This document shows, piece by piece, positions 51,816 to 64,000 of a stretch of 64,000 nt of DNA (position 1 is its first letter; every line of letters begins with the position of its first letter). Origin of the DNA: Aggregatibacter kilianii. GTDB taxonomy: Bacteria; Pseudomonadota; Gammaproteobacteria; Enterobacterales; Pasteurellaceae. The notes under the pieces were generated by a model. It was not told the origin of the DNA. It did not search any database and saw nothing but the letters and a program-made list of their open reading frames with translations. The translations under genes were made by a program, and so were the position numbers. The DNA is taken from positions 124,001 through 188,000 of the forward strand of contig NZ_NRCN01000002.1 of assembly GCF_003130255.1 (NCBI RefSeq), in the 5' to 3' direction.

Positions 51816-53213
51816 TCAGTTAGGCACCGTCACATCGGCAATCAATTTCAAATCCGGGTTCACATAAACCACACGGAAATCATCACCTTGTTTTACCACT
51901 TCCAGCATTTTGATTTTGTGTTGGCAATCCCGAATCGGCTTGCGATAAGCGTAGGTTCGCATTCTGTCATTGAGCTTAATTTGTAGCTCAAATCCATGAC
52001 CGCTATCAAGCATTTTACACATATAACCGCCCGGCACTTGGTGCGCACCGAATTGTTCTACGGTGAAAACATAACTGCCGTTTGGCATTTGGTTACGACT
52101 CTTCGCCACAATATTTTCCACCGGCGAGGTGAAATTCCGTTTTTTGCTGCCGCAACCTACACCATTCATATCCACGTCAAGCACAGCATAGCCATTAGAA
52201 CATTTATTGGCGTGGGCGTTTAACGTATTTAATTGTAAGTCCAAATCCTCGCCATTATGCCATGCCAAAGAAGCCCGGAAATCACCGTTCGGGTTACCAC
52301 CGGAGGCTTTGACTTTTTCCGCAATGCTATTATCAATTTTCGGCTTAGGCGGCTTTTTCTCTTCTTTTGGTTTTTCCTTCATCGGCTCAGGCTTTTTCAC
52401 CTCTTTTTTCGGTTCCGATTTTGGCATTTCTTTCACCGGTTCGGGTTTTGGTGCTGCTTTCACCGGTTCAGGTTTAGGCGCTTCTTTCACCGGTTCAGGT
52501 TTAGGCGCTTCTTTCACAGGCTCCGGTTTAGGTTCCTCCTTCATCGGCTCGGGCTTTGGCTCTTCTTTTATAGGCTCGGGTTTTGGTTCTTCTTTCGGCG
52601 GTTCCGTTTTTGGCTCCGGTTTGGCAATTTCAATTTTTACCGGCACTGTCGGTTCCGCTTTAATCGGCTCCGGACGGAAATAGAACCACCATGCTAACCC
52701 GCCTAACAACAATAACAATAATAATGGCAACAACCACAGCCACCAACGGGGCTTTTTCACCAGAGGTGCAGGCGGCACAACAGGCATCGGCTTTTTGCCC
52801 AAGCCCCAACCGATAATCACAGGTTGCTTGTTCACCACATAAATGTGGATAGAATCATGTTGCGCCGCCTCGACTAAGCTTTCCAATAAAGTCGCTTGTT
52901 CGGTGGTAATCGTGCCTTTTTGTAACAAATCCGTACGCAATTTATCCACTGCGTCCAAACGTTGAGATATCAGCGTTTCAGCTTGTTTGCGGGTTGCTTG
53001 TTCCCGTTCGGTATTGCCTAACAAATATGGTTGTCCTTGCAACTCGGAATACCATTCCACCACATTACCATTGACTTCAGGACGTGCAAACATAGAAGCC
53101 GTACTGGGCGGTAGGTGCCGATTTAACAGACTGACAATTTCATCATAATGGCCAAATAACTCGACAGCAGTCGGATTTTGCTGTTCCAAATTGACTCGTG
53201 CAAGACGTTGCAT
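51816..53213 (-). CDS. SrfA-like N-domain membrane protein with Pro/Glu/Lys stalk and distinct C-terminal domain
   Basis: 465 residues. Residues 1-140 form a cytoplasmic domain shared with the three genes upstream in transcription (MQRLARVNLEQQN start, EWYSELQGQPYLLGN, VNKQPVIIGWGLGKK) and reminiscent of the SrfA virulence-factor family. A membrane span follows (about 157-178, Leu-rich), then a stalk of PEPxKEEPK repeats (about 200-285). The C-terminal 165 residues are not VWA: LAWHNGEDLDLQLNTLNAHA and a pair-rich set of Cys suggest a beta-sandwich resembling DUF2135-like domains of secreted proteins. Last gene of the cluster. Function unknown. Confidence 0.8.
   Translation of the reverse strand: MQRLARVNLEQQNPTAVELFGHYDEIVSLLNRHLPPSTASMFARPEVNGNVVEWYSELQGQPYLLGNTEREQATRKQAETLISQRLDAVDKLRTDLLQKGTITTEQATLLESLVEAAQHDSIHIYVVNKQPVIIGWGLGKKPMPVVPPAPLVKKPRWWLWLLPLLLLLLLGGLAWWFYFRPEPIKAEPTVPVKIEIAKPEPKTEPPKEEPKPEPIKEEPKPEPMKEEPKPEPVKEAPKPEPVKEAPKPEPVKAAPKPEPVKEMPKSEPKKEVKKPEPMKEKPKEEKKPPKPKIDNSIAEKVKASGGNPNGDFRASLAWHNGEDLDLQLNTLNAHANKCSNGYAVLDVDMNGVGCGSKKRNFTSPVENIVAKSRNQMPNGSYVFTVEQFGAHQVPGGYMCKMLDSGHGFELQIKLNDRMRTYAYRKPIRDCQHKIKMLEVVKQGDDFRVVYVNPDLKLIADVTVPN
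52359..52616 (-). repeat. Coding repeats of the Pro/Glu/Lys stalk
   Basis: Imperfect tandem units of about 27 bp encode PEPVKEAPK-type repeats (residues about 200-285). The opposite strand is open and gives spurious Gly/Ser-rich frames. Confidence 0.75.
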
Positions 53214-53263
53214 AATCTCTCCAACTTCAAAAACGCGGTGAAAAACGACCGCACTTTATCACA

Positions 53264-54763
53264 TTATTTACACTCTTCTTTTTCCACCATCGGCTTAATA
53301 GCTTGGTTAATCATGCTGGTGACTTGTGCCTTGCTATTGGCGGTAAACACTTTGCCTTTGGTCGCGGTGGCCAAACAATTTGCGGCTTTAGTGCCCCCAA
53401 TATCCACTACGTTAATTTTCAATTTCGGTTTATTTTTCGCGATTTGACGGGCGAGGCCGCATACGTCGTGTTTTACTCCGTTACAGAAATCATCACCATC
53501 ACTTAACACTAAAATAAACGCCTCACGCTTAACACCATCAACCATTGATGCCGCTTGCTGTAAACCACTATAGAGCGCGGTGCCAGTGCCCTGATCACTG
53601 TCTTTCGGTTGCAATGCATTGATTTGGGCTTTTAGTGCTTTCCGCTTACCTGGGCCGAACATGCCATGATTTCTGGCTCCTGGACACACTTTTAAACTCA
53701 CCAATCCAATATCAATATTCGGATCAATCTTATCAATGATTGCCGCAGCAGATTTCTTCGCCGTACTAATACGGTTTGGCTCACGGCGCATATAATCGAA
53801 ATCTGCGTCGGAGGAATACTGCGAATCAATAAAACGTTGAATAGACGCCGGACTTTCCAACAATGAAAACAACATCGACAAGGAATCATCAAATACAATC
53901 ACCATTTGCGGACGTTGAGCCGGGGTGATGGTTTTGGTGCAATATTTCGGTTTTTCCGGTTTAGGTGGCTCCTTCACTTTCAACGGCTCCTCAACCTTCG
54001 GTGGTTCTTCGACTTTTGGCGGTTCTTCCACTTTTGGAGGTTCCTCTACTTTTGGCGGTTCCTCTACTTTTGGCTCTTCCGGCTCCGGAATAAACTCAAG
54101 CCGCTGTGGCTCGGGCTTCGATTCCTCTTTTGGCGGTTCCGGTTTCGGTTCTTCTTTTGGTGGCTCCGGTTTGGAAATTTCAACTTTTACAGGCTCCATT
54201 GGTTGAGATTGAACCGGCTCAGGGCGGAAGAACAACCACCACGCCAAACCACCTAGTAATAGCAATAATAACGGTAACAACCACAGCCACCCGCGGGATT
54301 TACTTGGTACAGGCACAACAGGTGGTGGGACTGGAATCGGCTTTTTACCCAAGCCCCAACCGGTAATCACGGGTTGTTTGTTGACGATATAAATTTGGAT
54401 GGAATCATGCTGTGCCGCATCAACCATGCGCTCCAATAAAGTCGCTTGTTCTGCACTGATACTGCCCTTTTGCAACAACTCCGCACGCAGTTTATCTACC
54501 GTAGCCAAACGCTGTGAAATCAAGCCCTCAGCCTGTTTTCTAGCCTGCTGTTCCCGTTCGGAGTTACCTAACAAATATGGTTGTCCTTGTAACTCCGAAT
54601 ACCACTCCACTAACTCGCCATGCACGTCAGGTCGCGCCAACATAGTGGCTGTGCTTGGTGGAAGATGACGAAGTAAAATTGTCGTGACCTCATCATAATG
54701 GCCAAACAACTCCACGGCTGCGCTATTTTGTTGATCTAAATTAACTCTTGCTAAGCGTTGCAT
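53264..54763 (-). CDS. SrfA-like N-domain membrane protein with C-terminal VWA domain (copy A)
   Basis: 499 residues: shared N-domain (1-140), Pro-rich linker, membrane span (about 158-179), KPEP and VEEPPK stalk (about 198-270), then a VWA domain (about 286-495). The metal-ion-dependent adhesion site is intact: DDSLS (292-296), Thr in GTGTALY (about 395) and Asp in LSDGDD (about 422). Several Cys suggest disulfides, fitting a periplasmic location. It starts with the same MQRLARVNLDQQN as its neighbours and is separated by 50 bp from the next gene with an uptake signal between. Confidence 0.83.
   Translation of the reverse strand: MQRLARVNLDQQNSAAVELFGHYDEVTTILLRHLPPSTATMLARPDVHGELVEWYSELQGQPYLLGNSEREQQARKQAEGLISQRLATVDKLRAELLQKGSISAEQATLLERMVDAAQHDSIQIYIVNKQPVITGWGLGKKPIPVPPPVVPVPSKSRGWLWLLPLLLLLLGGLAWWLFFRPEPVQSQPMEPVKVEISKPEPPKEEPKPEPPKEESKPEPQRLEFIPEPEEPKVEEPPKVEEPPKVEEPPKVEEPPKVEEPLKVKEPPKPEKPKYCTKTITPAQRPQMVIVFDDSLSMLFSLLESPASIQRFIDSQYSSDADFDYMRREPNRISTAKKSAAAIIDKIDPNIDIGLVSLKVCPGARNHGMFGPGKRKALKAQINALQPKDSDQGTGTALYSGLQQAASMVDGVKREAFILVLSDGDDFCNGVKHDVCGLARQIAKNKPKLKINVVDIGGTKAANCLATATKGKVFTANSKAQVTSMINQAIKPMVEKEECK
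53966..54073 (-). repeat. 18-bp coding tandem repeat (PKVEEP)
   Basis: About six 18-bp units encode PKVEEP; the unit length preserves the frame, so copy-number change would only lengthen or shorten the stalk. Confidence 0.85.
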
Positions 54764-54813
54764 AATCTCTCCAACCTCAAAAATACGATGAAATATGACC
54801 GCACTTTATCACA

Positions 54814-56310
54814 TTATTTACACTCTTCTTTTTCCACCATTGGTTTAATGGCTTGGTTAATCATATTAGTAACTTGTGCTTTACTGTTAGCGGTGAACAC
54901 TTTGCCTTTGGTCTCCGTTGCCAAACAGTTTGCGGCTTTCGCACCACCAATATCGACGACATTAATTTTCAGTTTTGGTTTTTGTTTGGCTAATTCTTGT
55001 GCTATAGCACACACATTAGTATTACCTTTATCACAACTTTCCTCACCATCGCTCAACACTAAAATAAAAGCATCACGTTTAACGCCATCTACCATGGCTG
55101 CGGCTTGTCGCAAACCGCCATGAAGCGCCGTACCTATATTCTCCTCGCCCTCTTTCGGAAACAATCCTCTAATTTGAGCTTTTAGTGCTTTACGCTTACT
55201 CGGACCGAACATACCATGATTTCTGGCTCCAGGGCATCTTCTTAAACTTACCAATCCAATATCAATATTAGGATCAATCTTATCAATAATATCTGTAGCC
55301 GCTTTTTTTGCTGTAGTAAGACGACGTGGTTCACGGAACATATGTGCTTTTTCCTCTTCCGAGATTATCTCATTATTACGCCAACGATCCCAAAATGCGT
55401 TAATTACTGCACTGCTTTCATTTAAACTAGCCAACATAGATAAGGAATCATCAAATACAATTACCATTTGCGGACGTTGAGCCGGCGTAATAGTTTTAGT
55501 GCAATATTTTGGTTTTTCCTGTTTAGGAGGTTCTTCCACTTTCGGAGGATCCTCAACCTTTGGAGATTCCTCCACTTTTGGTGGTTCCTCCACTTTCGGT
55601 GGTTCTTCTACTTTCGATGGTTCTTCCGGCTCAGGAATAAACTCAAGCTGTTGAGGTTCCGGCTTCGGTTCCTCTTTTGGTAGTTCCGGTTTTGGTTCTT
55701 CTTTCGGTGGCTCCGGTTTAGAAATTTCAATTTTCACCGGTTCTATCGGTTCAGGCTGAATAGGCTCAGCGCGGAAGAACAACCACCATGCCAAACCACC
55801 TAGTAATAGCAATAATAATAGTAACAACCACAGCCACACGCGGGATTTACTTGGTACAGGCACAACTGATGGCGGAACAGGAATCGGCTTTTTGCCTAAG
55901 CCCCAACCTGTTATTACGGGCTGTTTATTCACCACATAAATTTGAATGGAATCATGCTGTGCTGCATCAACTAAGCGAGCTAATAATGTAGCGCGCTCTA
56001 CGCTGATGCCACCTTTTTGTAATAGCTCTGCACATAACTTATCTACTGCCGTCAAACGTTGTGAAATGAGTGCCTCTGATTGTTTTCGGAGATGTTGATC
56101 GCGCTCCGAATTACCTAATAAATATGGCTGACCTTGTAGCTCAGAATACCATTCCACGATATTCCCACTTACTTCTGGACGCGCAAACATAGCCGCTGTA
56201 CTCGGCGGCAGATGATGGCGTAAAATCGTCATGATGTCATCGTAGTGATGAAATAACTCAACGGCTGCTATATTTTGTTGTTCTAAATTGATTCTTGTTA
56301 GGCGTTGCAT
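54814..56310 (-). CDS. SrfA-like N-domain membrane protein with C-terminal VWA domain (copy B)
   Basis: 498 residues, the closest relative of copy A: same N-domain (start MQRLTRINLEQQN), membrane span (about 158-179), stalk of KVEEPP units (about 233-262) and VWA domain (about 284-494) with intact DDSLS (287-291), GTALHGG and LSDGEES. The C-terminal 55 residues differ from copy A at only three positions, whereas the front of the VWA domain (about 295-330) is quite different, which points to duplication followed by local conversion or divergent selection. Confidence 0.83.
   Translation of the reverse strand: MQRLTRINLEQQNIAAVELFHHYDDIMTILRHHLPPSTAAMFARPEVSGNIVEWYSELQGQPYLLGNSERDQHLRKQSEALISQRLTAVDKLCAELLQKGGISVERATLLARLVDAAQHDSIQIYVVNKQPVITGWGLGKKPIPVPPSVVPVPSKSRVWLWLLLLLLLLLGGLAWWLFFRAEPIQPEPIEPVKIEISKPEPPKEEPKPELPKEEPKPEPQQLEFIPEPEEPSKVEEPPKVEEPPKVEESPKVEDPPKVEEPPKQEKPKYCTKTITPAQRPQMVIVFDDSLSMLASLNESSAVINAFWDRWRNNEIISEEEKAHMFREPRRLTTAKKAATDIIDKIDPNIDIGLVSLRRCPGARNHGMFGPSKRKALKAQIRGLFPKEGEENIGTALHGGLRQAAAMVDGVKRDAFILVLSDGEESCDKGNTNVCAIAQELAKQKPKLKINVVDIGGAKAANCLATETKGKVFTANSKAQVTNMINQAIKPMVEKEECK
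55525..55614 (-). repeat. 18-bp coding tandem repeat (KVEEPP)
   Basis: Five degenerate 18-bp units encode KVEEPP/KVEESP/KVEDPP; fewer and more diverged than in copy A. Confidence 0.82.
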
Positions 56311-56352
56311 AACTTCTCCAAAGTCAAAAACGCAGTAAAAAACGACCGCACT

Positions 56353-57636
56353 TTATTCGCAAATTTCTTGTTGTACCGGCTTCATGGCTTGTTTAATCGC
56401 ATCGGTTAATTTTTCTTGGCTGGTCATGTCATGATCAAAAATCTGCCCGCCTGTCGCGGTTGCCAAGCAGTCTGTGACATTCCAGGGGGAATTGATACTC
56501 ACAATATTCACTTTCAATTTTGGCCGTTCTTTTGCCACATTTTCCATTAATGCACAGATTTTTCGTTCGGTGCAATCGCCGTTACCTTCGGTAATCAACA
56601 CAATCAAGGCTTCCCGCTTTTTACCATCAAGCAATGTTAAGGCTTTTTCAATGCCCTCATAAATAGGCGTGCCCGGTACTCGATGGTCACGCACCGTCAT
56701 ATTTTGTACTTTATTTTTTAATTCCGTACGTTGTGCACCGGTAAAAATACCATGGTTAATCGCAGCCGATACATCAGGCGATTTGCTGACGCAACTTTGT
56801 AGTTCAATCAAGCCGATATCTACGGCATTCGGAACATCATTAATCAAGTGCGTCACTGCCTCCTTGGCAGCTACAGAGCGATTCGGTTGACGATCCATAT
56901 AATCAATTTCGGATTGTGGCAGGATTTGTTGTTGCAATTTTTCATCAAATGCATTGATCGCGGCTTTACTTTCCAACAAAGTATATTTCATACCGGTAGC
57001 GTTATTAAAAACAATCGCTAACTGTGGAATATCCGCTGGCTTCTCCACTTTTCGGCAATTTTTCGGCACAATTGACTCAATTTTTACAGTTTTAGTAACA
57101 GGCGACATTAAAAACAACCACCCAAGAATGGCCAAAATAGTGAAAGTGGAAAGTAATAGCGGCAATAACCAACGATGGGGTGTTTTTGTCTCTGTCACTG
57201 GCGGTGTCTGCTCAGCAGTGATATCTTTTTTCTGCCCCCAACCGATAATCACAGGTTGTTGGTTGACGCTGTAAATTTGAATATCGTGTTGTTTTACGAT
57301 ATGTGTGAATTGTTTTAAATAATCAGCAATAGTGGGTTCAATCGCCTCTTTTTGCAATAACTCGGATACCAATGCATCAATGGAAGTCAAACGTTGCACA
57401 ACAAGCGCGTTGGCTTCTGCATAGTGGCTTGAATGGACGTCTAATAATTGTGGTTGCCCTTGCAATTCGGAATACCATTCCACCATATTGCCCTTCACTT
57501 CAGGGCGCGCCAATATGCTTGCCGTGCTAGGTGGCAAATAGCGATTTAATATCGCTACGATGTCATCGTAATGGTGAAATAACTCGATCGCTTCCCGGTT
57601 GTATTGATCCAAACCAACCCGTGCCAGACGTTGCAT
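56353..57636 (-). CDS. SrfA-like N-domain membrane protein with degenerate VWA domain
   Basis: 427 residues. The N-domain (1-135) and membrane span (about 155-178) match the three downstream paralogues, but the repeat stalk is absent. The VWA-like domain (about 205-420) has lost the metal site: DDSLS is replaced by NNATG (211-215) and the later Asp of LSDG by Glu (ITEG). Probably structural or inhibitory rather than metal-dependent ligand binding. First gene after the terminator that ends the lipoprotein gene. Confidence 0.78.
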   Translation of the reverse strand: MQRLARVGLDQYNREAIELFHHYDDIVAILNRYLPPSTASILARPEVKGNMVEWYSELQGQPQLLDVHSSHYAEANALVVQRLTSIDALVSELLQKEAIEPTIADYLKQFTHIVKQHDIQIYSVNQQPVIIGWGQKKDITAEQTPPVTETKTPHRWLLPLLLSTFTILAILGWLFLMSPVTKTVKIESIVPKNCRKVEKPADIPQLAIVFNNATGMKYTLLESKAAINAFDEKLQQQILPQSEIDYMDRQPNRSVAAKEAVTHLINDVPNAVDIGLIELQSCVSKSPDVSAAINHGIFTGAQRTELKNKVQNMTVRDHRVPGTPIYEGIEKALTLLDGKKREALIVLITEGNGDCTERKICALMENVAKERPKLKVNIVSINSPWNVTDCLATATGGQIFDHDMTSQEKLTDAIKQAMKPVQQEICE

Positions 57637-57697
57637 AGTATTCCTTAAAAAACATCCCCAAAAATCACCGCACTTTGAGGATCACAAAAAGTAAAAA

Positions 57698-57726
57698 GAG
57701 GGCCACCAACATCGTTGGTAGCCCTC
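57698..57726 (-). terminator. Intrinsic terminator between the relay operon and the VWA array
   Basis: Reading leftward, GAGGGC and GCCCTC enclose CCAAC/GTTGG with loop GAT, then TTTTTAC. It lies just after the lipoprotein gene stop, so the four paralogues are a separate or attenuated unit. Confidence 0.82.
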
Positions 57727-57736
57727 AGTATTCGCA

Positions 57737-58225
57737 TTATAAGCCTAATGCTTTTTGTAGATTAGATAACTTGCGTTGTAATTGTTCTAATTCCGCTTGT
57801 TTTTCCATTTCAGAACCGCTGCTGTTATTGACGGCTTTCATTTGTTTCTCTACTTCGGCAATTTCCGCCTGCAAATCTTGTCTGCCTTTGGCTTTTTGTT
57901 TTAACTCGGCTGTGAGTTTACCCACAGACTGGTCGAGTTTAGCCTGTTGCGCTTTTTTCTGTGCAATAGATTGGTTAACAGATTTTTGTTGCGCTTTAAT
58001 ATCGGCATAAATTTTATTAAATTTGGCATTTTCTGTCTTCGCGTCTAACACCAATTTTTCTTTTTGTTCAATACGCTTGTCATAACTGCCCGAAAACTGA
58101 CAGGTCGCTTTACTGAACATATTGAGTTCAACACTCGGATCGCACTCTTCCGGCGTGTTGGTGCAGGCAGAAAGCAACACGGCAGCACCTAAAAGTGCGG
58201 TGGTTTTTAGCAATGTTTTTTTCAT
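57737..58225 (-). CDS. Coiled-coil lipoprotein
   Basis: 162 residues. Signal peptide with lipobox LLSAC (Cys21); an uptake signal encodes its TTALL. A short Cys-containing segment (CDPSVELNMFSKATC) is followed by a long coiled coil (about 55-160, rich in K, Q and E). With the next gene it probably plays the TagQ-like role of a lipid-anchored partner of the permease/ATPase system. I do not recognise a specific family. Confidence 0.75.
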   Translation of the reverse strand: MKKTLLKTTALLGAAVLLSACTNTPEECDPSVELNMFSKATCQFSGSYDKRIEQKEKLVLDAKTENAKFNKIYADIKAQQKSVNQSIAQKKAQQAKLDQSVGKLTAELKQKAKGRQDLQAEIAEVEKQMKAVNNSSGSEMEKQAELEQLQRKLSNLQKALGL

Positions 58226-58234
58226 AGCATCTCC

Positions 58235-58948
58235 TTAGCCGACATTTAACGCATTACGTTGTTGTGATACAACAGCAACTTGTTTTTCCAAGGCGGTAAT
58301 CTGTTTTTGATATTGCGCGATTTGCGAGTCTAATTTCGCCACGTTCATACCGCTGCCACGCTCTTTCTTCGCCACTTCTTTCCAATCTCTCTCGCTTTCT
58401 TTCATTTTTTTCAACTTTTCATTTAAGTAAGCGATGTTACCATCTATTTCTTTCAACTGACGTTTGGCTTCGTCTTTTTGAATGCTGTTATCTTTTAACT
58501 TACGATTCAAATTCGCCAACGTTTGTTGATTTTGGGTCAACACGGTTTTCGCAGAATTCGCCAAAGTTCTGGCTTCTTGGGTGTTTTTGTTTAAATCTTT
58601 CAAATAAGCATTTAAACGTTCTTCTTTATTGGCGTAACTGGTACGTTGTTGTTCCAAATAATAGTTACCGCCCATTAAGATACCGCAACCGGCCACCGCA
58701 GCCACCGCAGAACATAGCGCGGCATTATCGGTTCCGCTTAATAAACACGCCCCCACACCTGCAGCCGCACCGGCTGCACAGGCAGTTAATCCGGATTTAC
58801 TAAAGAATTCTGCTTGATTGCCAGAGGTTAAACGCTTGTCCACATTAGAAGAACCGAGATTGGACATACTTTCACAACCGGCTAAAGCCAATGTTGCGGA
58901 TAAAGTCAAAACACCGACAATAGATTTTTTAGATTGAAAATTAAACAT
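58235..58948 (-). CDS. Glycine-rich coiled-coil lipoprotein
   Basis: 237 residues with lipobox LAGC (Cys24). Residues about 52-95 are Gly/Ala-rich with three Cys (AAGAAAGVGACLLSG, AVAAVAGCGILMGG), a likely hydrophobic hairpin able to enter a membrane. A coiled coil runs from about 100 to the end. It lies between the FGE-like gene and the smaller lipoprotein, in the position where a TagQ lipoprotein would be expected. Confidence 0.75.
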   Translation of the reverse strand: MFNFQSKKSIVGVLTLSATLALAGCESMSNLGSSNVDKRLTSGNQAEFFSKSGLTACAAGAAAGVGACLLSGTDNAALCSAVAAVAGCGILMGGNYYLEQQRTSYANKEERLNAYLKDLNKNTQEARTLANSAKTVLTQNQQTLANLNRKLKDNSIQKDEAKRQLKEIDGNIAYLNEKLKKMKESERDWKEVAKKERGSGMNVAKLDSQIAQYQKQITALEKQVAVVSQQRNALNVG

Positions 58949-58981
58949 AAGATGCTTCCTTTTTTATTTTAGTGAGGTGGG

Positions 58982-60592
58982 TTATTTTACTTGACGGCAA
59001 CGTTTTAACCAAGCGTCACGGTCAACTTTTCCATCTTTATTATATTGGGATAATTGTTCCCAATAAGATTGAATAAACTGTGCGGCATTATTTTTTTCAC
59101 GATTTTGTAAGCGTTGTTTAGTCGCCTCCACTTGTTTCTCGATCATCGCCACATTATATAAAGTTGCATTATCAACTAAGGTATCTGCGTAATATTTTAA
59201 GGTGAATTTCAACGCATTTTCCGCTTTCAATTTTTTCTCATTGAGATTATTGATTTGATCGTCGGTACACAAACCTTCTTTCGGTGCACCGTCACAGGTT
59301 TGTTTGATATTTTCCGCCAAACTCAACGCGTTTTGGTAAGTATTATCCAAATCGACCACATTGCTACACAAGAATCCGCCCAAGCGTAATGAGGCTTGAA
59401 TAGCCGAATCACGCTGTTCATCACGGGCTTGGTTGGCTTGCCGCAAAGTGTCGTTTAATTTTTTCAGTTCTTTTTCCAACTGTTCCTTGGCAATGGTTTG
59501 ATTTTGCACGTCTTGTGCCAATTTTTCCAATTGCCCAACCACATTGGAACCCGCGCCGTGCTTATCATCTTTGTTATCATCACGACCCAGCTTAGCCCAT
59601 TCTTCTTTCAAGTCTTTAATTCGTTGTGCGGAGGTTAATACGGGTGCTACCATCGCCACGCGAAAACCGATATCTTTAGCTTTGTCCGCATTGCCATTGT
59701 GATATAAAGGACGCTCAATACGATAAGCATTAGTTAAACTTTCTGCCGAATTTAAATAACTGCCGCCACGCACGGTGACACCACCACTTTGCCCGTGGTA
59801 ATGATCTAAACGGTTGAGTTTGAAAGCATCAAACATCATTTCTGCAGCATTACCCAAAGTGTCAAACAGGCCTAGCGGATTGCCCTCCAACTGCCCGGTG
59901 AGCTGAATTTTGCCGTTAGCATTTTTGTTGCTCCATACATATTTCTCCGCGCCATCTTTCATTGGGAAAAGCGGTTCACGAAATTCGGAAGAAGACACCG
60001 CCGCACCACCGCGCGCCGCGTACTCCCATTCCGCATTGGTCGGTAAACGGACAAACCCTTTTGTGCCGTCTTCACTTGGTAATTTATCTGCCGCATTTTT
60101 TAGCAACCATTCATTATATTTGCGGGTAAATTCCACGGCATCAAACCAACTCACTTCTGTCATCGGCAAACGCCCTTTCATGTTGGCTGACGGGCATTGT
60201 TCGTTCATTACCGATTGATATTGCAACTGTGACACTTCATATTTGGCCATTAAAAAATACCGGCCCTGAGACTTGTCGCCAAAACTGCCGGCAATGGCAT
60301 TTGGGGTAGAATGTTCGGCAATTTGGTCGGCAGAATTGTCACTGCCCAAAATGATGCTTTTTTCTTCCAACGGCGAATGGGTTTCCGTTTTTACCATGCG
60401 AAAAACCATACTGCCTTCACAAGGCATAGGTAACATCACATCGCCTTCCAAAGGTTTTGGATTATAAAATTTCTCTTCCCATGGAGCCGCATAAGCAGAC
60501 TGCGCTACCAATTGCGTCAAAAGTGCGGTGGAAAAAATAGCTATTTTTGTCTTACGCCGTGGCTGTTGCATTTTTGGGGTTATTTTAGACAT
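58982..60592 (-). CDS. tagR: TagR-like protein with formylglycine-generating-enzyme (SUMF1) fold
   Basis: 536 residues, exported (signal peptide about 10-36, ending AYA; an uptake signal encodes its STALL). Residues about 55-320 have the FGE-sulfatase fold: LMAKYEVSQLQYQSVM, MTEVSWFDAVEFTRKYNEW, RLPTNAEWEYAARGG, LGNAAEMMFDAF and VRGGSYLNS. The catalytic Cys pair of true FGEs is absent, as for TagR of Pseudomonas, so it is a binding protein. The rest is coiled coil (about 350-400) and a helical C-domain. Its start overlaps the permease stop by 8 bp. Confidence 0.8.
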   Translation of the reverse strand: MSKITPKMQQPRRKTKIAIFSTALLTQLVAQSAYAAPWEEKFYNPKPLEGDVMLPMPCEGSMVFRMVKTETHSPLEEKSIILGSDNSADQIAEHSTPNAIAGSFGDKSQGRYFLMAKYEVSQLQYQSVMNEQCPSANMKGRLPMTEVSWFDAVEFTRKYNEWLLKNAADKLPSEDGTKGFVRLPTNAEWEYAARGGAAVSSSEFREPLFPMKDGAEKYVWSNKNANGKIQLTGQLEGNPLGLFDTLGNAAEMMFDAFKLNRLDHYHGQSGGVTVRGGSYLNSAESLTNAYRIERPLYHNGNADKAKDIGFRVAMVAPVLTSAQRIKDLKEEWAKLGRDDNKDDKHGAGSNVVGQLEKLAQDVQNQTIAKEQLEKELKKLNDTLRQANQARDEQRDSAIQASLRLGGFLCSNVVDLDNTYQNALSLAENIKQTCDGAPKEGLCTDDQINNLNEKKLKAENALKFTLKYYADTLVDNATLYNVAMIEKQVEATKQRLQNREKNNAAQFIQSYWEQLSQYNKDGKVDRDAWLKRCRQVK

Positions 60593-61811
60593 CTCGTAAA
60601 CTCTCCGCCGGTTGGATTTTCACCGCTTGTCGCGCACCGATTCCTGCCACAATGGCAGCGAGGCATAAGGCGATCGCAAAAGCGATGAATAAATGAATAA
60701 AATTCAAGCTACTGATAAAAATATCGTTGGATAAATTCTGACCTAATACGAAATTAAATACCTGACTGCCTGATAAGAATAAGAAATATGACAGTACAAA
60801 AGCGAAACTGCTCAAACACAGCGCTTGCATAATTAAATATAAAATCACCGCGCCGCTTTGAAAACCGAATAGACGTAGCAGTGCAATTTCTTTCCGCTTA
60901 CGATCGATATTGGCTAAGAACGCACCTATCAGCGATAATACACAACCCAACACCGCTGTCGCTGCAATGACCATAAAAATCACGTTGAGCACACCGTCAA
61001 TGGCTTTGACGTTTTCAATAGCTTTGGCTTCTGTTGAGGTTTCAATATTTTTCTGCCGTAATTTTAACGCCAAAGGTGCTACATCATCTAAGCTATTAGC
61101 ATAAATGCGGGCGCGGGCGAAGTGTTCCCGCTGTTGCGGACGGTCAGGATCCTGTTGATTGGCAAAAATAGCGGTTTGGTAACCATCCCGAAAATCCTCC
61201 ATTGCCAATAAGGTGTCCAACTGCACAAAGGCACCCGAACGGGCAAAACGGGTTTCAGGCACAATACCTTCCACCGCCAATTGGCTAATGGCTTTTTCCA
61301 CCTGATTATTTTGCGAACGGGTGACCACCAAATTGATTTTATCGCCTTGTTTTACATTTAATTTCTCTGCGGTTAAGGCACTTAATAACACACCATTGGG
61401 TTTACTTAGTGCTTGTTCCGTTAAAGGATCGTTAACGGCTGTCGGAATCACTTCCACATCCTGCACAAATTTCTTACCACCATTTTGATTGGCAGACAAA
61501 TCGGCAATGGTATTTAAAGAACGGGTCAACGGCACCACAAAACGGGTTTCCGGCTGTTGTTGTAACCAATCAAACCAGTTCTTATCTAAATTGAGATTGC
61601 CGATAATTTTAATTTCAAGATTGCGCGGATCATTAATTAACTGATGGCGTAACTGGGAAACTACGCCGAATTTCAAGCTGAAAAGCAACAATAACGGCGC
61701 AATTACCGCAATAAGAGACGCAATGATGCAAAAAGACACTTTGCGATCGTAATACAAATCCCGCAACGCTAATTTGCCCAGGAACATATAAGACAGATTA
61801 ACTTGCTGCAT
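60585..61811 (-). CDS. tagS: TagS-like ABC permease (FtsX family)
   Basis: 408 residues from the ATG at 61809-61811; a longer upstream frame overlaps the ATPase gene and is unlikely. Topology is one N-terminal span (about 25-48), a large periplasmic domain, then three C-terminal spans (about 280-310, 322-350, 370-395) ending in QPAESLRDV, the MacB/LolC-type layout. Such permeases act as mechanotransmitters. Its start overlaps the ATPase stop by 14 bp. Confidence 0.85.
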   Translation of the reverse strand: MQQVNLSYMFLGKLALRDLYYDRKVSFCIIASLIAVIAPLLLLFSLKFGVVSQLRHQLINDPRNLEIKIIGNLNLDKNWFDWLQQQPETRFVVPLTRSLNTIADLSANQNGGKKFVQDVEVIPTAVNDPLTEQALSKPNGVLLSALTAEKLNVKQGDKINLVVTRSQNNQVEKAISQLAVEGIVPETRFARSGAFVQLDTLLAMEDFRDGYQTAIFANQQDPDRPQQREHFARARIYANSLDDVAPLALKLRQKNIETSTEAKAIENVKAIDGVLNVIFMVIAATAVLGCVLSLIGAFLANIDRKRKEIALLRLFGFQSGAVILYLIMQALCLSSFAFVLSYFLFLSGSQVFNFVLGQNLSNDIFISSLNFIHLFIAFAIALCLAAIVAGIGARQAVKIQPAESLRDV

Positions 61812-62523
61812 GATGCGTTTCCTTCGGTAAAAACACCGCTTGCGCCGGTGTGGATAAATCTGCATACAGACTTGGCAAATGATTATTTTCCACCAAATCC
61901 CAATCATGGGTAACTAAAAGCGCCGTAATTTTTTGCTCTTCCGCCAATTTAATCATTAATGAAAATAAGATTTGTGCATTATTCGGATCAAGCGCGGCGG
62001 TAGGCTCATCTGCCAATAACAGACTTGGTTTGTGAATCACCGAACGAATAAAAGAAACCCGCTGCCGCTCTCCAATAGAAAGCTGACGCGGGTATTTAGT
62101 AAGCAATGATTGAATATTTAAGGCATCCGTTAAATACAAAAACCAGTCTTTATCCATGGTGCTATTTAACATTGAACAAGGCAATTCAATATTCTGTTGT
62201 ACCGACAGAAAAGGCAATAAGCCTCCCGTTTGCAACATGAAACCTAACTTTCCTGCCCGTAGCTTAGAAAGTGCGGTCTGATTTTTTTGTAAAATTAACG
62301 GTTGCAAATCCACTACATCACCGGCATCCCCTAATTGATAGCGAACCAAACGATCGGGCTGCAAAATCAACCCGATCATTTCCAATAAGGTACTTTTGCC
62401 ACAACCACTGGCACCTTGAATGGCCAAAATCTCGCCATCCTGCAATTCAAGTTTAGGCAACAACACATTAAATTGTTGGCTCCCCTGCCCACGCCGAATC
62501 GCCATTTCTTCAATAAATAACAC
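61798..62523 (-). CDS. tagT: TagT-like ABC transporter ATP-binding protein
   Basis: 241 residues of the LolD/MacB class. Walker A GASGCGKST around 36-44, Q-loop LQTGGLLPF, ABC signature LSIGERQRVS (an LSGGQ variant), Walker B LLLADEPT and the switch His in LVTHDWD. With the permease it forms an ABC unit that does not import anything obvious. 30 bp, with an uptake signal, separate it from the VWA gene upstream. Confidence 0.87.
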   Translation of the reverse strand: MLFIEEMAIRRGQGSQQFNVLLPKLELQDGEILAIQGASGCGKSTLLEMIGLILQPDRLVRYQLGDAGDVVDLQPLILQKNQTALSKLRAGKLGFMLQTGGLLPFLSVQQNIELPCSMLNSTMDKDWFLYLTDALNIQSLLTKYPRQLSIGERQRVSFIRSVIHKPSLLLADEPTAALDPNNAQILFSLMIKLAEEQKITALLVTHDWDLVENNHLPSLYADLSTPAQAVFLPKETHHAAS

Positions 62524-62553
62524 CGCACTTTTCCTGTTATGTAAATGAATAAA

Positions 62554-64000
62554 TTATGGTAACGCCTCAAGCGGTACAGGATAAACGTAATCGCGTGGAT
62601 CGCTGCCTTCCGATAAAGAAATCCAGCGGGATTGGTCCTCGTTAAACACGCGGTAATGACGTAACTTGCTGTTTAAATCACGAATAAATTTTTCTTGCTC
62701 TAGGGCACTCATACCTTTCCAAATTTGTTCGTCCAATCCGGTGACTTGGCTTTTATACGGTATGCCGTCCAAATATTCTCCTAACAAGCCTAACTCGCCC
62801 AGTTTGGTGGAGTTTTCTTGTTTTAATTTATTCGGGTCTTGTCCCATTGCCGCGGCAACAGAACGTAATTGGGCAAACATCGAATCCGGTGAAATTAACC
62901 CTTCATTCGCGGCATCGGCAATTTTCTTCACTACATCGCTTAAATCGCTTAATTGCGCTTTAGTCATCAACACGCGGGCTTCTGCTGTCGGAATCGTTGG
63001 TTTAAGGAAATCCTTATCGCTAATCCAAGCTTTAAATACCGGCGGCGCTTTGGCGCCATTTTTATCACCTAAATAAGCCAACTGCATTGCTTTGCCCAAT
63101 AATTCCGCATCTTGCTCAATTTCAGTTTTGGCTTTTTCTTGCTTAGGCTCATCAACGATCGTGCCTGCTGCATTTTCCCCTTGGTATGCCAATTTCACTT
63201 GCGATGTCAAGGCACGAGCCAAAGCACCTACTTTTTCACCAAACTCATTCACATCACCGGCATTCACCGCATAATACAAGGGCTTGTTCAAGTAGTTATT
63301 GAAAGATAAATCGCTATATTGGGTTTTCGCCTGTTCGTGATTTTTTACCCCAGCCGGAGTTTTTAAGTGCAAGGTATAAATCGCCACGCCACGATGTTGT
63401 GCTTCTAAGCGCAATTGTTTTGCGTCCATTCCGGTGGAGGATAATGGATTATTACCGTCTAATGCCCCCGCATCGGTCACCAACACAATGTAGCGACCAC
63501 CGAAATTGTTCCAGTTAATTTCATTTAATGCCTGTGAAATACCGGCAAATGAATCTTCGCTAAACTCTTTACTGGATACTTTCGCCTGTTTTAATTCAAC
63601 AGCTTTTTGCAAGAAATCTTGCGTATCTTTCACCGTACTTGGGTCAACAAACATTTTAGAGACGTATTCCAATCCCGGCACCGCCTTGGTGCTGGAACGG
63701 AAACCGACCAAACCAAACTTAACCTGTTTGCCTAGGTTTTCTTTTTCAATTTGTTCGGAAACTTGTTTAATCACATCACGGGTACGATTGATGTAAGGAT
63801 CCATGGAAATACTGGCATCCACCACAAATACCACCGCAGCACTGAACCCGGTCAACACTTGCGGTTCACTTTTCGGATCAGACTTATTGGTTTTCGGATC
63901 GGTTTTTGATTGTGTTGCCTGTTGAACCACAGGATCCGTTTTACTCACAGACGCCACTTCCAAAATACGCTCATAGAAACCTTGTGAGTTCATGACTTCT
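62554..64000 (-). CDS. PpkA-like VWA-domain protein (partial, runs off the right edge)
   Basis: At least 479 residues are visible from an ATG at 63991-63993, but the frame is open to the window edge, so it is probably the C-terminal part of a larger protein. A VWA domain spans about residues 50-250: intact DASIS metal site in FVVDASISMDPYI, FGLVGFRSS and VLVTDAGALDG. The rest is helical with YVYPVPLEALP at the end. VWA-plus-long-tail is the C-terminal layout of PpkA kinases of type VI secretion, and the next genes are tagT-, tagS- and tagR-like. A kinase domain, if present, lies beyond the edge. Confidence 0.72.
   Translation of the reverse strand, partial: EVMNSQGFYERILEVASVSKTDPVVQQATQSKTDPKTNKSDPKSEPQVLTGFSAAVVFVVDASISMDPYINRTRDVIKQVSEQIEKENLGKQVKFGLVGFRSSTKAVPGLEYVSKMFVDPSTVKDTQDFLQKAVELKQAKVSSKEFSEDSFAGISQALNEINWNNFGGRYIVLVTDAGALDGNNPLSSTGMDAKQLRLEAQHRGVAIYTLHLKTPAGVKNHEQAKTQYSDLSFNNYLNKPLYYAVNAGDVNEFGEKVGALARALTSQVKLAYQGENAAGTIVDEPKQEKAKTEIEQDAELLGKAMQLAYLGDKNGAKAPPVFKAWISDKDFLKPTIPTAEARVLMTKAQLSDLSDVVKKIADAANEGLISPDSMFAQLRSVAAAMGQDPNKLKQENSTKLGELGLLGEYLDGIPYKSQVTGLDEQIWKGMSALEQEKFIRDLNSKLRHYRVFNEDQSRWISLSEGSDPRDYVYPVPLEALP

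Follow-up and report, generated by a model that had tools for sequence, protein, structure and literature searches.

A putative kinase-free transenvelope relay joined to srfABC in an operon-like gene run of Aggregatibacter kilianii

We analyzed a 64,000-nucleotide stretch of the 2.46-Mb Aggregatibacter kilianii genome (G000:C2:124001-188000, hereafter the window), together with the genes just to its right, for which we continued the window numbering past 64000 (extended coordinates). From 73245 (extended) to 51816, 14 genes follow one another on the minus strand, with intergenic gaps of -110 to 100 bases, in the transcription order srfA, srfB, srfC, tm330, vwaP, tagT, tagS, tagR, tagQ, lip2, sv1-sv4. 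The run appears to be an operon-like unit uniting two modules, a relay related to the PpkA-TagTSRQ block of the Pseudomonas H1 type VI secretion system (T6SS) and the SrfABC proteins. We favor, with a probability of about 0.42, the reading that the relay crosses the envelope without a kinase and acts via tm330 and SrfA on SrfC and SrfB, with local membrane remodeling as its purpose. It builds on homology, gene order, and the missing kinase, phosphatase, FHA, and T6SS markers, together with a predicted fold for SrfC.

The first-pass annotation of this DNA had described a VWA protein, an ABC ATPase, an FtsX-type permease, an FGE-fold protein, two lipoproteins, and four membrane proteins, and all of these are present on the minus strand between 51816 and 64000. 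It had taken the VWA gene, vwaP, to be open at the window edge. This gene instead continues to 64539 (62554-64539, extended) and encodes a complete protein of 661 amino acids. The predicted join to Srf proteins was borne out, as srfA, srfB, and srfC lie just to the right of the window.

To compare the relay with kinase-bearing PpkA clusters, we used six clusters found through the curated TagQ model, which was over its cut-off in 6 of 398 genomes of a phylum sample. A VwaP profile, combining the A. kilianii protein with those of 78 loci, aligned with the C-terminal region of six longer proteins in these clusters (990-1164 amino acids), and an N-terminal Ser/Thr kinase motif was present in 6/6. 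VwaP aligns with the full periplasmic part of PpkA at 37% identity. Profiles of the Srf-linked proteins scored T6SS-linked TagT, TagS, and TagR at 245-254, 334-356, and 296-304 bits, respectively; two unrelated ABC ATPases in the loci scored 82 and 101 bits. All six clusters are transcribed in the order ppkA-tagT-tagS-tagR-tagQ, as is the A. kilianii operon, which disposes of the proposal that its gene order is reversed relative to Pseudomonas. Ten proteins from two of the clusters were searched against Pfam. Both clusters gave matches to Pkinase (157 and 162 bits) and TagF; L178 also had PP2C, VipA, VipB, TssF, and a TssA-like protein, and L183 had IcmF, so that these are T6SS-linked PpkA clusters. 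The tss scan covered these two, and the remaining four are termed T6SS-linked from TagQ, the kinase, and gene order. By these sequence comparisons, the relay proteins are homologs of Pseudomonas TagT, TagS, and TagR and of the periplasmic part of PpkA, as the first-pass annotation had supposed.

The N terminus of VwaP reads as an export signal, and its Pfam matches are of the VWA type only (PF00092, 25.8 bits; cut-off 23.8). In the tagT translation we recognized a Walker A motif (GASGCGKST), signature (LSIGERQ), Walker B motif (LLADEP), and switch His (VTHD); in Pfam searches, TagT matched ABC_tran at 76.8 bits and TagS matched FtsX at 46.9 bits. Because the listed tagS open reading frame (ORF) overlaps tagT by 110 bases, translation likely starts at an internal Met at 61811. 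TagR matched both FGE-sulfatase (PF03781, 123.2 bits) and, by sequence, FGE structures in the PDB. The position after its RGG motif, which we take to be the active-site Cys site of FGE enzymes, is occupied by Cys in 0 of 77 relatives, in agreement with the earlier description of an FGE-fold protein lacking the catalytic Cys. The tagQ-like protein matched the curated TagQ model (NF041250) weakly, at 31.8 bits against a cut-off of 300; weak matches to this model are frequent, occurring in 241 of 398 phylum genomes. With the local profile, T6SS TagQ proteins scored 58-71 bits. The relay is 92% identical to that of the A. kilianii locus L088.

VwaP contains no kinase domain (PF00069) in a Pfam search whose positive control gave 157 and 162 bits, and the kinase motif was absent from all ORFs of at least 150 amino acids across 80 Srf loci, the best (that is, nearest) 80 of 581 related loci. 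The vwaP frames listed at 978 and 967 amino acids in two of them (L159 and L161) look over-long, because the homologous part, from residue 325 and 314, begins beside signal-peptide-like sequence. Across the A. kilianii genome, no Pkinase match passed the cut-off; a single match reached 19.4 of the 31.7 bits required, and similar short sub-threshold matches occur in most Pasteurellaceae searched. FHA and PP2C_2 had no match in the genome at E 0.001, nor did TssC and TssK (other tss genes were not searched), in line with the statement that no T6SS gene is at hand. Among 13 Pasteurellaceae genomes with SrfC over its cut-off, 12 lacked TssC (exception, G059) and 12 lacked Pkinase over cut-off (exception, G038, in which Pkinase and srfC are on different contigs). 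Since kinase, PP2C, and FHA are all missing, we rejected the threonine-phosphorylation path that had been proposed for this relay.

SrfB, SrfC, and SrfA scored 1396.6, 1104.1, and 325.8 bits with their family models, all above cut-off. No membrane helix is predicted in the A. kilianii SrfB (1015 amino acids) or SrfC (897 amino acids). The predicted fold of SrfC, for which the alignment drew on 43 of the 80 loci, is dynamin-like, and the P-loop and DxPG motifs occur in 79/80 and 80/80 loci. This fold is shared with the bacterial dynamin-like proteins SynDLP, BDLP, and IniA, to which SrfC is about 10-17% identical in sequence, while a sequence search returned no PDB match below E 0.1. Structure prediction thus supports SrfC as a dynamin-like GTPase. 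For SrfB, the phosphate 1 and phosphate 2 motifs (79/80 loci) and an hhalign match to Hsp70/actin ATPases (P 8.3e-5) suggest an Hsp70-like ATPase. The tm330 gene lies between srfC and vwaP and overlaps vwaP by 4 bases. In one genome (G237), a tm330-like match follows srfC and vwaP was not found; therefore, tm330 may belong to the Srf side.

The four sv proteins share an N-domain, as had been noted before, with 55-79% mutual identity and weak matches to the SrfA family model (24.4-40.4 bits; cut-off 150). Their earlier description as a VWA array holds for sv2 and sv3, which pass VWA_2 at 28.5 and 30.8 bits (cut-off 27). It does not extend to sv1, which scored 19.1 bits and has a VWA-like domain with a degenerate metal site (NNATGM), or to sv4, in whose C-domain a family scan found no VWA match. 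While sv2 and sv3 are 79% identical in the N-domain and 74% identical in the C-domain, the sv4 C-domain is only 22% identical to theirs, with N-domains (76-79%) and helix and stalk (63-88%) remaining similar among all three. Judged from these sequences, sv2-sv4 (51816-56310) combine a common base and a repeat-rich stalk with an unrelated tip in sv4, forming a tip-swapping paralog array. The N-domain alignment comprised 60 of 107 stretches, and alignment A8 comprised 109 of 182 cluster representatives. In Xenorhabdus griffiniae, a SrfA frame (L132, 5000-6907) contains two N-domain copies, at residues 29-145 and 191-303.

A strong stem resembling an intrinsic terminator separates lip2 from sv1, and thus the sv array may be attenuated or expressed separately from, or at a lower level than, the core. 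As the region contains 29 terminator-like sites compared to 16.1 expected, the stem at 57698-57726 is a consensus match only.

How might such a unit work? The first module would be a kinase-free relay of the TagQ-like and lip2 lipoproteins, the Cys-less TagR, a mechanotransmission-type TagT/TagS pair, and exported VwaP. The second would be SrfABC, consisting of SrfA and its paralogs, the putative Hsp70-like ATPase SrfB, and the predicted dynamin-like GTPase SrfC. SrfA and its paralogs would be bitopic, with the common N-domain inside and the stalk, bearing an exchangeable tip, outside. The lipoproteins and TagR could sense when the outer membrane is damaged or under load, and ATP cycles of TagT/TagS would hand the signal on to VwaP. 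Because the homolog of the PpkA part is here a soluble exported protein, another membrane-crossing protein must do the part of the kinase. Given its location and overlap with vwaP, tm330 is the best candidate, followed by SrfA. At the damaged spot, tm330 and SrfA would recruit or switch SrfB and SrfC, such that the inner membrane is remodeled or mended; a dynamin-like GTPase and an Hsp70-like ATPase would be natural local effectors there. We infer the direction of signaling, the role of tm330, and membrane remodeling as the output.

Findings from Pseudomonas and Salmonella bear on this proposal. In P. aeruginosa, TagQ and PpkA are described as required for the response to mechanical or chemical outer-membrane damage (PMC11881912), and PMC6082577 presents the periplasmic part of PpkA as the probable point of action of TagR. 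Salmonella srf mutants are reported to swarm poorly (PMC4219756), which fits an envelope role and proves nothing.

The block vwaP-tagT-tagS-tagR occurs together with srfC in 76 of the 80 loci, more than chance retention, although the count overstates conservation because these loci are the nearest ones. They come from Pasteurellaceae, Orbaceae, Pseudomonadaceae, Morganellaceae, Alcaligenaceae, Halomonadaceae, Aeromonadaceae, and others, and from one Ignavibacteriota metagenome-assembled genome. In Ventosimonas gracilis (L131), srfABC-tm330-vwaP is present and tagS and tagR were not found in the 22.6-kb locus. The block may be cut off in three shorter loci (L136, L139, and L148); in L139, matches to tagR and tagQ lie upstream of srfA. 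In three further loci (L160, L163, and L164), tagQ-lip2-sv precedes srfA rather than following tagR; the lipoproteins have changed position together with a stalked protein. The Ignavibacteriota genome (L161, Stygiobacter) carries the whole operon and clusters with Insolitispirillum in the tree, pointing to cross-phylum transfer or a binning error.

The distribution of SrfC is patchy. It is over cut-off in 13 of 101 Pasteurellaceae genomes (14 at E 0.001) and was found in 21 of the 398 phylum genomes. Relay genes adjoin srfC in 12 of 12 Pasteurellaceae loci read (11 as genome stretches, A. kilianii included, and one as L089; the 13 SrfC genomes minus G100). At E 1e-30, the vwaP profile detected 15 of 398 phylum genomes: eight with SrfC, the six kinase-bearing, and one third context. 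The 13 SrfC genomes without vwaP in this sample comprise 12 of the Enterobacteriaceae type and G237; none of tm330, vwaP, tagS, and tagR was found in nine of the 12 Enterobacteriaceae-type genomes, read at the locus. In the third context (G113; L194, 8520-16345), the order is vwaP-tagT-tagS-tagR-tagQ-lip2, with no srf genes in the 19 kb read. Its VwaP (754 amino acids) has no kinase match, nor any other Pfam match at E 0.001, and was recognized only by the family profile (382.6 bits). Neighboring genes encode Sel1/MORN-repeat proteins, a protein with MG2/A2M-like matches, and an S41 peptidase.

To place the kinase-bearing relays, we built trees from concatenated VwaP, TagT, TagS, and TagR. From 88 loci, the first tree left out four that had only three of these genes, as well as 27 near-copies, giving 58 rows with the A. 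kilianii relay; the second, also of 58 rows, additionally left out L157 and included L194. A branch fully supported by the Shimodaira-Hasegawa-like approximate likelihood ratio test (SH-aLRT) sets the six kinase-bearing rows apart from the rest. With G113 as outgroup, the deepest fork was unresolved among three clades (the kinase-bearing one, the main Srf clade, and f50, a divergent Srf clade), and the tree carries a warning of long branches meeting. The simplest reading, not proved, is a single gain of the kinase. A wider and rather doubtful extension is that the VWA-TagTSRQ relay was originally kinase-free and its outputs interchangeable, with SrfABC, a dynamin/Hsp70 machine for local inner-membrane remodeling, as the older general partner of this damage sensor, an S41-peptidase envelope set as the output in one genome, and a single kinase fusion giving rise to PpkA/T6SS, making weapon control in Pseudomonas a late derivative.

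Several observations weigh against a relay acting through SrfB and SrfC. The TxxD guanine motif of SrfC is found in only 61/80 loci, and full-length Foldseek TM-scores are low (0.13-0.20 for the first eight). SrfB has no Pfam HSP70 match and no PDB match, and in the wider superfamily it aligns with FtsA at P 0.012 and with MreB at only P 0.5. As srfABC is retained in the Enterobacteriaceae type while the relay is missing there, SrfABC can work without it. The overstated conservation counts here too, as does published work in which SrfABC is cast as a cytotoxin (PMC6950479).

Of the alternatives, we considered foremost, and judge unlikely, that TagTS is an exporter or lipoprotein mover of the MacB/LolCDE kind, with the VWA and SrfA-like proteins as its substrates in an adhesion or surface apparatus. 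An FtsX-type permease, an ATPase with LolD/DevA-like matches (about 127 bits each), two lipoproteins in the operon, and a series of stalked proteins whose tips are exchangeable would all suit such a machine. The pair falls far short of the family models: LolD, LolCE, and MacB scored 126.6, 33.2, and 93.9 bits, with 307.75, 362.45, and 966 bits needed, and we rejected its membership in LolCDE or MacB. This outcome and the presence of srfB and srfC are the reverse of what the first-pass annotation had named as evidence against its proposal. The pair is nearer to T6SS-linked TagT/TagS (245-356 bits), which are described as acting in signaling (PMC6082577), and family scans of the operon proteins recognized no outer-membrane channel gene.

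It is less probable still that the three Srf proteins make up a cytotoxin or effector set, with the relay governing its release. Xenorhabdus SrfABC is reported to be cytotoxic to insect and HeLa cells (PMC6950479), and the same output was proposed in PMC3608642. Against this, SrfB and SrfC are large proteins with NTPase motifs and no predicted membrane helix in the A. kilianii copies, they also occur in Azotobacter, Halomonas, and many Pseudomonas, and the A. kilianii genome has neither TssC nor TssK. Defense against phages or attackers through a membrane-acting GTPase (dynamin- or GBP-like) would accommodate the patchy presence and the dynamin-like effector, and seems very improbable: of eight proteins scanned against PADLOC families, only TagS had a match, to a 2TM effector at 16.8 bits, and we rejected an assignment to these families. 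Signaling by phosphorylation through a kinase elsewhere in the genome has the homology of VwaP to the periplasmic part of PpkA in its favor, and the searches of A. kilianii and the 13 Pasteurellaceae genomes described above make it hardly credible.

Table 1. Features of the srfABC-relay gene run and their coordinates
Feature	Coordinates	Strand	Description
srfA	71299-73245 (extended, beyond window)	minus	start probably near 72996
srfB	68222-71269 (extended, beyond window)	minus	SrfB family model
srfC	65544-68237 (extended, beyond window)	minus	SrfC family model
tm330	64536-65528 (extended, beyond window)	minus	one-helix protein
vwaP	62554-64539 (extended; window part 62554..64000; L005:1554-3539)	minus	exported VWA protein, homolog of PpkA periplasmic part, without kinase domain
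tagT	61798..62523	minus	ABC ATPase
tagS	60585..61907 (as listed ORF)	minus	FtsX-type permease
tagR	58982..60592	minus	exported FGE-fold protein without active-site Cys
tagQ-like	58235..58948	minus	lipoprotein, lipobox LAGC, Glu after Cys
lip2	57737..58225	minus	coiled-coil lipoprotein, lipobox LSAC, Thr after Cys
terminator-like stem	57698..57726	minus	13 pairs, 8 G-C, then TTTTTACTTT; in 100-base gap between lip2 and sv1
sv1	56353..57636	minus	SrfA-type N-domain, membrane helix, hardly any stalk, VWA-like domain below cut-off
sv2	54814..56310	minus	architecture as sv3; VWA_2 28.5 bits
sv3	53264..54763	minus	SrfA-type N-domain, membrane helix, Pro/Glu stalk, VWA domain, DDSLSM metal site
sv4	51816..53213	minus	SrfA-type N-domain, one membrane helix, Lys/Pro/Glu-rich stalk, C-domain without family match

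Past srfA, on the opposite strand, lies an aromatic amino-acid permease gene (tyrP). Farther right (L004, 4833-10827), the translations of several frames read like a type I restriction-modification system.

SrfB and SrfC are regarded as putative virulence factors, of unclear function according to PMC3608642 and with a toxin role proposed by PMC6950479; in Pasteurella multocida, srfB and srfC are reported as up-regulated in an acapsular fis mutant strain (PMC2816674). Once SrfC is read as a dynamin-like GTPase and SrfB as an Hsp70-like ATPase, both linked to a homolog of the best-studied envelope-damage relay, their function becomes directly testable. If true, a kinase-free relay would show that TagTS, TagR, and a VWA protein transmit across the envelope without phosphorylation and that the kinase is an add-on. 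The linkage of srfABC to tagQRST is not new, as it was published in PMC3608642 and noted in PMC6950479. Our literature searches turned up no earlier account of the missing kinase, the third context, a dynamin-like SrfC, tip swapping of SrfA-like proteins, or the proposed mechanism, and to that extent these appear to be new.

Among known systems, the TagQRST-PpkA path of the Pseudomonas H1-T6SS resembles the A. kilianii relay in TagT, TagS, TagR, the periplasmic VWA part of PpkA, and gene order. It differs in that A. kilianii VwaP has no kinase domain, the genome lacks PP2C, FHA, and T6SS markers, and the relay has an extra lipoprotein, lip2, and is joined to srfABC and tm330. The SrfA, SrfB, and SrfC family models of the Salmonella and Xenorhabdus srfABC operon are matched in A. 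kilianii, where srfABC comes with a relay that the Enterobacteriaceae type lacks. SrfC is also shorter in that type, with frames of 717-826 amino acids (12 genomes) compared to 885-927 in seven relay-bearing genomes of the same sample; in the eighth (G212), on a short contig, the frame is 644 amino acids. In Xenorhabdus, genes for post-translational control of the T6SS are described beside srfABC (PMC6950479). Closest in gene content are host-associated Deltaproteobacteria, in which srfABC was described in 2013 with tagQ, ppkA, ligA, and mostly tagR, tagS, and tagT, and with T6SS machinery in one only (PMC3608642). The gene set is the same and mostly without a T6SS; going by that paper's description, the Deltaproteobacterial PpkA is taken as a threonine kinase, whereas its A. 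kilianii counterpart is kinase-free.

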